NCBI RefSeq assembly: GCF_026914265.1
Contig: NC_069138.1
Span: 27,123,262-27,187,261, forward strand
DNA from: Mya arenaria
Taxonomy: Eukaryota > Mollusca > Bivalvia > Myida > Myidae
DNA length: 64,000 nucleotides
Direction: 5' to 3'
The notes below the pieces were generated by a model. The model did no database searches and was not told where the DNA came from. It was given only the letters and a program-made list of their open reading frames with translations. The translations under genes and the position numbers were made by a program. Of the stretch, positions 41,279 to 45,861 are shown piece by piece. Every line of letters starts with the position of its first letter. Position 1 is the first letter of the stretch.

Positions 41279-41358
41279 GACTGTCAGTGATTATTATAAC
41301 TTAGACATGTATGAAATCTGTCTTCAGAATGATTTCAAATAAAAAAAATGAGACAGTC
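41279..41358 (+). ncRNA. box C/D-type snoRNA candidate 1 (RPS5 intron 1)
   Basis: Terminal stem GACTGTC/GACAGTC. C-like box GTGATTA at 41286-41292 (consensus RTGATGA), then the invariant ACTTAGACATGTATG, an internal ATGATTT (C'-like), and a D-like box ATGA abutting the closing stem. The TGA and GA cores needed for the kink-turn are kept. ACTTAGACATGTATG complements CATGCATGTCTAAGT near the 18S rRNA 5' end over 15 nt with one G-U. Confidence 0.6.
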
Positions 41359-42274
41359 AATGACTATTCAATTGTAACCCCTGATGTCCAGTACTTATTT
41401 TAGTAAATTGTCTAAAACTGTACACAGCAATCCTCACTGCACTTTAATAGATATTTATAGCGTTAGAATTACCATTCTAATAAAAAAACTACCATGCCCT
41501 TGTGTTATTTTGTTCAAACAACAACGTATGCCTATACTGCCATTTTTAGCGCATTTTTTTTGTGGTGGAAGGAAATGTCTTGGAAAGGTATTATAGACAT
41601 TGTATCATCACGCATAGTGCTTAATCTGTGACAATGCTATTGCTCCAAAAATAATTCAGAAATATATTAAGATAAAACTTGGTATACTTGTTGCCTATGA
41701 CAATATACATAATTTAAGCTGAAACCCTTAATTCTCTGCCTTTTAGGACATATCCTACTTTAAATGTACACATAGATTTCATTGTTTGGTGCACAAGTTC
41801 CATGTCATTACACACTTGTTAAATTTATTTTTAAAATCAGACTATTTGTTTCATTTAATCTGTTAATAAGCCTGGACAAAACAGCTGGTAGTAAAAGAGT
41901 CATTGAATGGAACATTGCGGATGGTCAAGGAATGCCAAATTTCTTGTAACATTATACAATTGTCTAAAATTATTTTCGGTATTTTCCCCTTTTTTGTGCC
42001 CCCCCCCCCCACACACACACACAACAATCCATTTATTTTTTTGGGCCCAAGGAGAATGATTTCAGCTTGCTTATTGAGACTGACTAGTTATACCATACAA
42101 GTGATTTATTTTAATATCTTCTGCTACTTTGGGATCCTTGTTCAAAACATGGATCTGGAACAAAATGTTGAAAGTCCCAGACATACTTGACACTGGTTAA
42201 TTTTAAGATATGCATCATGAGAATGCAACTGAATTTATCTCCCATTTTTAAAATGCTACAATGATTAATTTAAT

Positions 42275-42353
42275 GGCTGTCCGTGATTACTTTAACTTAG
42301 ACATGTATGAAATCCATAATTGGAATGATTTCAACTTGCTTAATGAGACAGAC
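42275..42353 (+). ncRNA. box C/D-type snoRNA candidate 2 (RPS5 intron 1)
   Basis: Same plan: near-complete stem GGCTGTC/GACAGAC, GTGATTA, the invariant 18S-complementary stretch, TGAAATCC...GGAATGATTTCA forming an internal stem, and ATGA before the closing stem. Confidence 0.6.
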
Positions 42354-42546
42354 TTTATTATTTACATATTATACCAGTGATTCATTTTGCAATTCCTTGT
42401 ATCCATCTCCTGGACTCCACATTTCTAAACCATGCAAAATGGTGTGTTTGATTGATGATGGGGCAATTCACCATCCAAAATAGTATACTTTTTTCCCCGA
42501 AAAATTATGGAGACTCGTAATTCACAAACCTAAAAAAAGAATTAAT

Positions 42547-42624
42547 GACTGTCGGTGATTATTTCTACTTAGACATGTATGAAATCCATAAAGGAATGAT
42601 TTCAACTTTATAAATGAGACAGAT
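42547..42624 (+). ncRNA. box C/D-type snoRNA candidate 3 (RPS5 intron 1)
   Basis: GACTGTC opening (5 bp pair with GACAG), GTGATTA, ACTTAGACATGTATG, ATGATTT and ATGA are all present. The spacer before ATGA differs from the other copies. Confidence 0.58.
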
Positions 42625-42874
42625 GTTATATGATATTATAACAGTGATTAATTTTGGAATTGATTGTTTATGTATGCTTCTTGTGGACTCCTATACTTAA
42701 AAACAATAGATCCTGAGCGTTACTTTTAAAATATGAATTGTGCATATCACCTGTTTAAAGAATAATTGGTCATCTTGCAGGAAAAACATTGAGACAAGAG
42801 TATGGGGTTTTGGGAAATTTATTGCGGTGCAAATAGTTAAATGATCATAAAAAGTGGGCAGCAGCATCTGTAGG

Positions 42875-42945
42875 TACTGTCCGTGATTACCTCATCTTAG
42901 ACATGTATGAAATCCAATGATTTCAACTTGCAAAATGAGACAGAA
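42875..42945 (+). ncRNA. box C/D-type snoRNA candidate 4 (RPS5 intron 1), shortened
   Basis: Same boxes (GTGATTA, CTTAGACATGTATG, ATGATTT, ATGA) with stem CTGTC/GACAG. The apical loop between TGAAATCC and ATGATTT is deleted, so this copy may be less fit. Confidence 0.5.
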
Positions 42946-43340
42946 TTCACAAACTATGTCATTTGTGTATGTAAATCTGAAAGTTCATTTTGAGAGCCTT
43001 TGACTTCAGTCTATTATTGTACAGTAAAGATTGACTGTTTTCTGCTATTAGATTTAAATAAAAAAAATAATAGGAAGTACCTTGAAATGAATACAAATGA
43101 CTTTGGAAATAATTTCAAAAGATGTCTGCCCCTTACGCCTGCTTTTGGAATGAATCCCTCAAACAGACCCGACCTGTTTTTCAGGATTGACAATTATCAT
43201 CTGATAAATTACTATATAACAAACATCAGCTTGTAACGTTTTGTGCTATACAGTTATACTACACATGATATGTTCTATTTAAATGGATAAATACGAAAGC
43301 AGTGCTTTTACTGTTCCTCTTTGATTGTTTCAGGTAGAGC

Positions 43341-45861
43341 ATGGAGAACTGGGATGAAGCCGCGCCGGTGGTCGCCGAACTGCCAGAGATCAAGTTGTTT
43401 GGTAAATGGTCCACAGAGGATGTTCAAGTCAGCGACATCAGCTTGACTGTAAGTATTTCATGATAATAGAGGTCAACTTAAGGAAATAGGAGTACTTCAA
43501 ATTTGAATATTTACATTCGCCTTGAAAGTACTTGAATTATGGGCTGCTTGAAGGAAGTCTTTAAATTTGCAAAAGACTCCTTAGAACTACTTGAATTTTT
43601 TCTTTTGCCTTGAAAAGAGCTTCTTTTTCTCAGAAATAGTCCAAAATTTTCTTGTTCTGCTTCAATTGAAGTTTCTGTAGTATAAGTTTCATCTTTACAA
43701 AACAAGTTTGATCTTTGTGGATGCTTTGCTTGTAGCACATTGCTTTTCTCTTTCGGCTGGTTGACCTTTAAAATAAACACAAAACAATGTGTAGACATTG
43801 CATAAAAGTTTTCATTGACATCAGTTCAATGGGCGAATCTGCCCTGAAATCTGAGGCGAAGTCTGAAAAACATGATACATGTTAATCTGCCTACCAGTAC
43901 CACCAGTTTTATTAAATCAAATAAAGGTCCTTGAAAGCTCCTTGATAATTTTTAATTTTCATAAGTCAGGCTAGAGATTTGAAAACCATGAGTGAACACA
44001 AGTTTGCGTTAAAATAAATATATAAAAAACCTCCACTCCTGCACTCCTACAAATATAACATAAACATGCCTTTCCAGGACTACATTGCTGTCAAGGAGAA
44101 GTATGCCAAGTACCTGCCCCACTCTTCTGGGCGTTACCAGGTGAAACGTTTCCGCAAAGCCCAGTGCCCAATTGTGGAGCGCCTCGTCAACTCCCTCATG
44201 ATGCACGGTAGAAATAATGGCAAGAAACTGATGACTGTGAGGATTCTCAAGCACGCCTTTGAGATTATCCACCTTCTTACTGGCGAGGTGGGTTGGTTAT
44301 TGTATATCATAGTAGAATATCCTTGCAACTAATTATGACATCCTTTTGAAAGACGGATAATTTTGATGTATTTTTCATGAAGGACAAAATTTAGCTGAGA
44401 ACTACCTCATAAAAAAAAGTGTGATGTGAAGTTTTGTCCTTTCTCTGCGTTTATTTGTATAAGGCTTCAATCAGATGCTGGGACTGTAAAAACATTGTGT
44501 TTTAGAAAAAATCCATGTTAATGTTACCTAGTCTGAAAACCTATTTCCCATGTTTGGCCATTAATCAAGTCTTGTAAGAGGGTCTGAAAAATAAAAAGGT
44601 CTGGTAATAGAAATCTTGAATAGATTTTGATACGTGTATAATAGATACTAGTCTATGTGGCTGTCAATGATTACATATTAACTTAGACATGTATGAAATC
44701 CGTAATTGGAATGATTTCAACTTGCAAAATGAGACAGTCCTTTGTATAACTTATTTTAAAGGCTTTTTATAAAGTGAAAGTTGCAGGGAAGTCTGGTAAA
44801 TTATAAATCAAAGCAGTGTGTAAAGTGATATATTTCTTAAGAACATATGACAATGTAGACACAAATGATTAAAAAATAACTGGGAATCCTCATTCATATA
44901 CTGTCATCTAGCATTGAGGCACATAAACAATTTGGAGTCTGGCAAAATTGATAGGCTTTTGTTTGTGTACAAATGTCTTTCAATATTGTTGTTTTTGTGT
45001 ATTTCAAATTCTTTTAATAGAGAATTAATAACCTGTCAATTTACGTCGCTTCAGAACCCACTTCAAGTGCTGGTTAACGCCATCATCAACAGTGGACCCC
45101 GTGAAGACTCCACACGTATTGGACGTGCTGGAACAGTAAGACGTCAGGCCGTAGACGTGTCCCCACTGAGACGTGTAAACCAGGCTATCTGGCTGCTGTG
45201 CACCGGGTCCAGAGAAGCTGCCTTCAGGAACATCAAGTCCATTGCTGAATGTCTGGCTGATGAGCTCATTAACGCAGCAAAGGTAGTGTGCAATGTCACT
45301 GTGTTTGTATTGAGCTACAGAAAGTACACTGCATTTGATAGTCTTTGAATTTTCCACAGTAATTATGGCATTTATTATGGAAAACTTGTGGATAGTGAAT
45401 AGTTAGTTCCTTACTTTTCAAAGAAGTCTAGGGATTGTCAATAGCCTTTGTGTCGTTGTTATTTAAAAGATTTAGCCTTAGCCTCATATCAAAAAAAATT
45501 TTGGCATTAAGTTTCATGACATGAAACTTCATGCACATTTTAAGATTTATACAATACAAACAAGATGTGTTGCAAAGGCCAATATCTTTCAGCTTTATTT
45601 AGATATAATCAAGGTTTGCCCTGGGATTGACTAGAAAGAAACAATAACATGCATTCGCACTGCATGCAATGCTTTTAATTATTTTAAATTTCACTCAAAA
45701 AAGATTGATGCATGATTTTTCATTTATTTCTAATCTATGAAATATTCTCAAAAAGACTATCACAATCATGACAAATTGTCTTGGCTTTTCAGGGCTCCTC
45801 AAACTCTCACGCTATCAAGAAGAAGGATGAGTTGGAACGTGTCGCCAAATCTAACCGTTAA
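43341..45861 (+). CDS. RPS5: 40S ribosomal protein S5 (uS7)
   Basis: Coding exons 43341-43448, 44078-44287, 45055-45282 and 45793-45861 give 204 residues, the same length as human RPS5. The protein is nearly collinear with it: [20 protein letters not shown], then [51 protein letters not shown], and the end [14 protein letters not shown]. It is a structural protein of the small-subunit head near the mRNA exit and E site. All introns are GT-AG. The ATG sits 7 nt inside the second exon, after a 2.27-kb intron in the 5' UTR. Introns carry five snoRNA-like units, so transcription of this gene would also supply them. The frame is intact. Confidence 0.98.
44659..44740 (+). ncRNA. box C/D-type snoRNA candidate 5 (RPS5 third intron)
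   Basis: The only copy outside intron 1; it lies between coding exons 2 and 3. C-like box ATGATTA, the full 18S-complementary stretch, ATGATTT, and ATGA just before GACAG. Stem CTGTC/GACAG. Confidence 0.6.

Follow-up and report, generated by a model that had tools for sequence, protein, structure and literature searches.

A candidate box C/D snoRNA in five copies within RPS5 introns of Mya arenaria, with antisense to 18S rRNA

Five intronic units with box C/D architecture

The introns of the ribosomal-protein gene RPS5 (uS7) of the bivalve Mya arenaria carry five related units that we read, with a probability of about 0.85, as copies of a single box C/D small nucleolar RNA (snoRNA) encoded within introns. 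They lie in a stretch of 64,000 nucleotides (nt) of contig NC_069138.1 (positions 27,123,262 to 27,187,261, forward strand), the whole of which is called the window in the following. The reading rests on sequence, in which the architecture, the copy number, an antisense to 18S ribosomal RNA (rRNA) and, for close matches, the confinement of the units to RPS5 are directly evident. Respective positions are provided in Table 1.

Table 1. Positions of the five units, the decayed copy and the host gene, counted from the first letter of the window.
Feature	Position	Strand	C	Guide	D'	C'	D	Remarks
Unit 1	41281-41356	+	41287-41293	41299-41310	41311-41314	41329-41335	41348-41351	
Unit 2	42277-42351	+	42283-42289	42295-42306	42307-42310	42325-42331	42343-42346	
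Unit 3	42549-42622	+	42555-42561	42567-42578	42579-42582	42596-42602	42614-42617	
Unit 4	42877-42943	+	42883-42889	42896-42906	42907-42910	42917-42923	42935-42938	
Unit 5	44661-44737	+	44667-44673	44681-44692	44693-44696	44711-44717	44729-44732	C box ATGATTA
Decayed sixth copy	42054-42080	+						3' half only, C' region retained, D box TTGA
RPS5 intron 1	41062-43333	+						2272 nt, 5' of the start codon; hosts units 1-4 and the decayed copy
RPS5 intron 3	44288-45054	+						hosts unit 5
RPS5/uS7 coding exons	43341-43448, 44078-44287, 45055-45282, 45793-45861	+						open frame, 204 amino acids

All five segments were found where an initial annotation, made from the letters of the window alone, had placed them, and they measure 76, 75, 74, 67 and 77 nt from stem to stem (units 1 to 5). 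Each unit runs in the order terminal stem, one nucleotide, RTGATTA (C box), spacer and guide, ATGA (D'), ATGATTT (C'), ATGA (D) and closing stem. The elements that the annotation had listed as shared, i.e., CTGTC/GACAG, RTGATTA, TGAAATC...GATTTCA and the ATGA next to the closing stem, are each present in 5/5 units, and the same holds for the D' and C' boxes. Its shared internal block ACTTAGACATGTATG is exact in four of the five; the unit at 42877 starts with T instead. The block as such is real, while its complementarity to 18S rRNA had gone unrecognised, although nothing else argues as strongly that the units are guide RNAs.

The box letters are constant among the units while the spacers vary, which agrees with the earlier description of conserved stems and boxes amid drifting spacers. 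That is, the distances are 17, 17, 17, 17 and 19 nt from C to D', 14, 14, 13, 6 and 14 nt from D' to C', and 12, 11, 11, 11 and 11 nt from C' to D; unit 4 is the shortest and has most of the D'-C' stem deleted. The 5-bp terminal stem CTGTC/GACAG occurs in all units and extends to 7 pairs in unit 5 and to 8 bp in unit 1 (41278-41359). A 3-nt kink-turn bulge requires one free nucleotide between stem and C box, and exactly one is found in 5/5 units. With stem, C, D', C' and D in order, kink-turn geometry and variable spacers, the snoRNA-like class proposed before is borne out.

The host gene was likewise named correctly. The spliced 204-amino-acid product is RPS5/uS7 (Pfam Ribosomal_S7, E 1.4e-42; S5/uS7 structure chains, E 1.9e-122), with splice sites assigned by eye and from the open frame, not from transcripts. 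All five units lie on its sense strand, four in intron 1 and one in intron 3.

We also assessed how often such units arise by chance. The 20-mer core matches the window five times with up to 3 mismatches, compared to 0.01 expected matches. A scan requiring RTGATKA, MTGA 50-80 nt downstream and no fewer than 5 flanking stem pairs, a pattern designed after the units had been seen, yields five matches in introns 1 and 3 and none on either strand of the remaining window; among 2000 Markov resamples of the introns, 1929 gave no match, 69 gave one and 2 gave two. When MTGA was allowed up to 110 nt on, one extra match appeared on the minus strand near plus-strand position 63264. At 27640 and 61207, CTGTC and GACAG alone are again found at a distance of 65 nt; neither place is among the box-scan matches.

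Antisense to 18S rRNA and predicted target

The block that precedes D' can pair with CAUGCAUGUCUAAGU of eukaryotic 18S rRNA, which corresponds to positions 50-64 of RF01960 and is present in the Rfam SSU_rRNA_eukarya consensus itself. Units 1 to 5 form 15, 15, 16, 14 and 15 continuous pairs with it, each including one G.U pair; 11-13 of these 14-16 pairs are located directly upstream of D', where a methylation guide has its antisense of 10 or more nt, and in unit 3 the pairing begins one base before the guide start. The duplex energy is -21.6 kcal/mol. When 300 shuffles of unit 2 were compared with 1831 random nt, 14 Watson-Crick pairs were reached by none and 13 by one. The pairing was computed against a eukaryotic small-subunit (SSU) fragment; its alignment to RF01960 begins at position 19, has 50.8 bits (E 1.9e-13) and becomes poor in the tail.

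C/D guide snoRNAs direct methylation to the base opposite their fifth nucleotide, counted upstream from D'. Here, this fifth nucleotide is a C in front of ATGA and stands opposite G57 of 18S rRNA (RF01960 numbering), which we take to be human 18S G56. The chances that G57 is the methylated nucleotide appear about even on this rule. To our knowledge, neither a methylation (human and yeast included) nor a guide RNA is on record for this position. A literature search that largely covered journals outside subscription, using the guide letters with D', site names and RPS5-intron phrases, returned no paper; one Gm56-like match that came up is Gm562 of yeast, as named in the accessible text of PMC5464676. 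Given that units 1 and 3 deviate in their C'-D spacer, a 3' guide upstream of D was rejected.

The SSU fragment used for the pairing is the end of the IMG/VR contig IMGVR_UViG_3300007534_000105 (3230-3343 of the retrieved stretch). This contig is classed as viral although its end is eukaryotic 18S sequence, and it is probably a chimera or misfiled. In the Mya arenaria genome, a decayed fragment resembling the 18S 5' end is found on contig C10 at 46162566, minus strand (1350-1700 of the retrieved stretch). It holds the target stretch with one change, and Rfam does not report it when the cut-off is applied.

Kink-turn variant and stem pairing

Box C/D RNAs follow the consensus RUGAUGA/CUGA, and in their kink-turn, position 6 of C forms a pair with position 1 of D. 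Both box pairs of all five units have U at position 6 of C and A at position 1 of D, such that a U-A pair takes the place of the consensus G-C pair while, judged from the letters only, the tandem G.A and U.U pairs are retained. Since the exchange is common to all copies, it represents one event and not covariation within the family.

We further evaluated the pairing of the terminal stem (7 pairs) and the D'-C' stem (4 pairs) over the five units. Of the respective 52 cells, 92.3% are paired, compared to 27.8-42.0% for controls with slid partners. Changes on both sides are observed for 3/11 pairs, in one cell each. The score, the paired percentage and the double changes were reached by 4-6 of 500 shuffles; across all single measures, the count was 4-16. 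As they derive from five related sequences, we consider these pairing statistics supportive only.

Genomic distribution and history of the copies

The genome, 1.216 Gb in 18 contigs, was searched for close matches of the units. With patterns allowing at most one mismatch, the 19-mer CTTAGACATGTATGAAATC was found exactly at the five RPS5 units only. With one mismatch it occurs at two other places, which lack the C/D architecture; the reversed-pattern control gave two matches as well. Guide plus D' (WCTTAGACATGYMTGA) matches ten times, i.e., at the five RPS5 units and at five other places (L010, L011, L012, L018 and L019), with one match of the reversed-pattern control. These five places score at most 18.9 bits or are not matched at all by a family model, which gives 83.9-106.8 bits for the RPS5 units it was built from. 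By eye, none of them shows a C-to-D architecture; L012 has a short ACAA/TTGT stem preceded by ATGA, yet lacks a C box. We take the five matches as chance, for which an estimate under uniform composition predicts about 4-5.

L018 and L019, near-copies of each other, are the places of the two one-mismatch matches of CTTAGACATGTATGAAATC (L006 and L007). The latter lie on contig C17 near 42.58 and 43.06 Mb in near-identical stretches 0.47 Mb apart, each with the guide followed by ATGA, and apparently result from a duplication.

The units could have turned out to be a sequence widespread outside RPS5, which the initial annotation had named as the case against its proposal; the close-match patterns found isolated guide-length matches without architecture only. 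Within the reach of these patterns, the confinement to RPS5 is thus demonstrated for close matches, and an ordinary dispersed repeat is rejected given that the exact core is confined to this gene. The exact 19-mer of the core was also not found in the viral contigs searched.

Within RPS5, core identity ranges from 80 to 95% among the 10 unit pairs, with 59-70 matches in alignments of 65-75 positions. The decayed sixth copy shares 25/27 letters with unit 2 and scores 44, compared to 26 for the best minus-strand match. For the flanks, we made 25 comparisons (10 upstream, 15 downstream including the decayed copy) with 200 shuffles each. The downstream flanks of units 2 and 3 are alone clear of the shuffles (score 83 vs. 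a control maximum of 44; 0/200). Next are unit 3 and the decayed copy (3/200), the downstream flanks of units 3 and 5 (8/200), and, with 9/200 each, unit 2 with the decayed copy and the upstream flanks of units 1 and 4. Judged by their downstream flanks, units 2 and 3 arose by tandem duplication. Going by these alignments, the other flanks have for the most part eroded, with guide, boxes and stem retained. Core-limited gene conversion, or copying of the cores alone, may be an alternative history.

Relation to known snoRNAs

SnoRNAs in ribosomal-protein introns are known, and with respect to the whole class the units add one further C/D snoRNA in a ribosomal-protein gene; the unusual points are the target, the copy number and the box variant. 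At gathering scores, Rfam matches nothing in the 64-kb window. A relaxed scan of 40900-46000 gave 14 matches up to E 10. Nine of them belong to C/D snoRNA families and fall on units 1, 2, 3 and 5, led by SNORD79 (E 0.037); unit 4 is without a match. The best relaxed match has 31 bits where 47 are needed, and membership in a known Rfam family was rejected on both counts.

Among single families, U54/SNORD54 (Rfam RF00206) shares the kink-turn variant, i.e., its printed consensus has a GUGAUU C box and an AUGA D box with the same U-A exchange. However, it matches unit 1 alone, with 23.5 bits against a cut-off of 40 and a 5-nt gap in the guide region. SNORD100, located in an RPS12 intron from sponges to vertebrates, resembles the units in its ribosomal-protein intron, its C/D class and its conserved 18S antisense, but has another host gene and the 18S site G436, according to the available text of PMC3412847. 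The RPS5 set differs from it in having five copies, four of them in one intron, and a D box AUGA combined with a C box RUGAUUA. The same text records duplicated snoRNAs in neighbouring ribosomal-protein introns of sponges (PMC3412847).

U14/SNORD14 is antisense to the 18S 5' domain as well, with a human site, 18S-83, about 20-30 nt downstream according to the part of PMC12645875 at hand. Its 18S sites are other ones, and chaperoning by the units is putative. Neither the Rfam scan of the window nor the relaxed one of 40900-46000 gave a U14/SNORD14 match.

The initial annotation had called it unusual for animals that a single intron contains four units. The four units are real; the qualification may need softening, as an 'intronic gene cluster' organisation is recorded for rice and Drosophila in the accessible portion of PMC2780460, though the corresponding portion of PMC5932544 differs and assigns the members of Drosophila snoRNA clusters to separate introns of a single host gene. 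The rice and Drosophila clusters are alike in that snoRNAs cluster within introns (PMC2780460, same portion). What may distinguish the RPS5 set from these clusters is that its copies are near-identical, share a single guide and lie in a ribosomal-protein gene.

Counter-evidence and alternative explanations

Several observations weigh against the snoRNA assignment. The lack of Rfam matches at gathering scores and the 31 bits of the best relaxed match belong here, as do the C and D boxes, each of which is one letter off the consensus. In vertebrates, snoRNAs usually lie roughly 70 nt from the 3' splice site; units 1 to 5 are 1977, 982, 711, 390 and 317 nt away, far from this norm. The pairing has gaps, too: immediately outside CTGTC/GACAG, the adjoining pair is broken in 3/5 units, and 3/4 D'-C' pairs are gapped or lost in unit 4 while one fails in unit 3. 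In single-sequence folds, unit 4 forms none of the five terminal-stem pairs, compared to 5/5 in each of the other four units. The 18S pairing also takes in three letters of D', more than a guide requires. Finally, an 18S 22-mer searched with at most one mismatch was found in the genome only in the decayed fragment; an intact 18S was not found this way.

Some of these points bear on the number of functional copies. Possibly, if with clearly less than even odds, some units are dead duplicates or snoRNA retrocopies and one or two make RNA. Decay has already overtaken the sixth copy, unit 4 retains little of its D'-C' stem and is predicted without a terminal stem when folded alone, and in the established model of intron processing exonucleases alone would spare only the outer two of four units. 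On the other hand, CTGTC/GACAG, boxes and guide are intact in 5/5 units (unit 4 differs by one guide-start letter) while most flanks are unalignable, and for retrocopies it is unexpected that the exact core occurs in RPS5 only.

Somewhat less probable, and tentative, yet the main rival to methylation of G57, is a C/D snoRNA that binds 18S positions 50-64 without methylation, i.e., a U14-like folding chaperone that would delay part of the 5' domain until others are made. A pairing of 14-16 bp that runs through D' exceeds the need of a guide. The missing record of methylation at G57 in human and yeast, along with the empty search on site names, fits such a role. Base pairing without methylation is also how U3, U14 and U8 work, and the U14 contact at human 18S-83 is nearby, as given in the available part of PMC12645875. 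Against a chaperone, D'/C' take the position of a methylation guide in 5/5 units. Furthermore, U14 and U3 are conserved across eukaryotes whereas the units match no Rfam family.

We regard it as unlikely that U58 or another neighbour is methylated in place of G57, with D' read as TGAA or otherwise shifted. TGAA does follow one letter further along in GTATGAAATC, and D' boxes are often degenerate; yet ATGA is identical to the D box and makes the same U-A exchange with the C' box ATGATTT.

A last point concerns the 7-bp hairpin TGAAATC/GATTTCA, which overlaps D' and C'. As its letters are invariant among the units, covariation speaks neither for nor against its pairing; single-sequence folds predict 7/7 of its pairs in units 1 and 4 and 5/7 in unit 2, but units 3 and 5 are predicted to form none of them. 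That the units are no snoRNA at all but an intronic repeat or this hairpin, with a chance likeness to C/D boxes, is very improbable, since the hairpin leaves the terminal stem, the C/D box spacing and the 14-16-bp 18S antisense beside D' unexplained, and the genome pattern searches saw no dispersed copies of a repeat.

Proposed function and processing

For the five units as copies of one box C/D snoRNA, we propose the following sequence of events. After splicing, the terminal stem and boxes C and D would form a kink-turn and thereby bring in the C/D proteins 15.5K, NOP56, NOP58 and fibrillarin. Pairing with 18S rRNA around CAUGCAUGUCUAAGU would then involve the 12 nt preceding D', such that, following the fifth-nucleotide rule, G57 (RF01960 numbering) would receive a 2'-O-methylation. 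We infer expression, protein binding, methylation and the exact nucleotide. The copies would have arisen by duplication within RPS5, with guides and boxes kept while flanks and spacers drifted. As guides and boxes were kept while the flanks drifted, the copies probably act together and form a dosage set for a single target.

On a debranched intron, exonucleases would leave just the outer two of four units. Given this trimming, we infer that the inner units need a cut between them.

In its full form, our proposal is an undescribed family acting on 18S positions 50-64 that either methylates G57 or chaperones the 5' domain upstream of the U14 site, has a kink-turn variant in both box pairs, a dose raised by local duplication, and four units in one intron that need an endonuclease or a release without trimming. 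Whether all of this holds is, in our judgement, a matter of equal odds.

Should the RNA be made, a lineage-specific 2'-O-methylation or chaperone contact would be indicated within a very conserved 18S stretch. Four near-identical snoRNAs in one animal intron would serve as a test bed for the release of inner snoRNAs without end trimming. The unit set is also a clean case of a fixed guide and fixed boxes amid drifting neighbour sequence.

Other features of the window

Three further observations concern the window apart from RPS5. ORFs (open reading frames) at 6355-9542 resemble, by eye, a retroelement integrase and reverse transcriptase. A long trinucleotide run of the ATT/AAT type at 13375-13760 can be read as poly-Ile or poly-Asn in several frames. 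Finally, the ORF list, inspected by eye, contains two near-identical series in the same order at 20241-25699 and 29313-35468, which suggests a duplication of roughly 9-10 kb.

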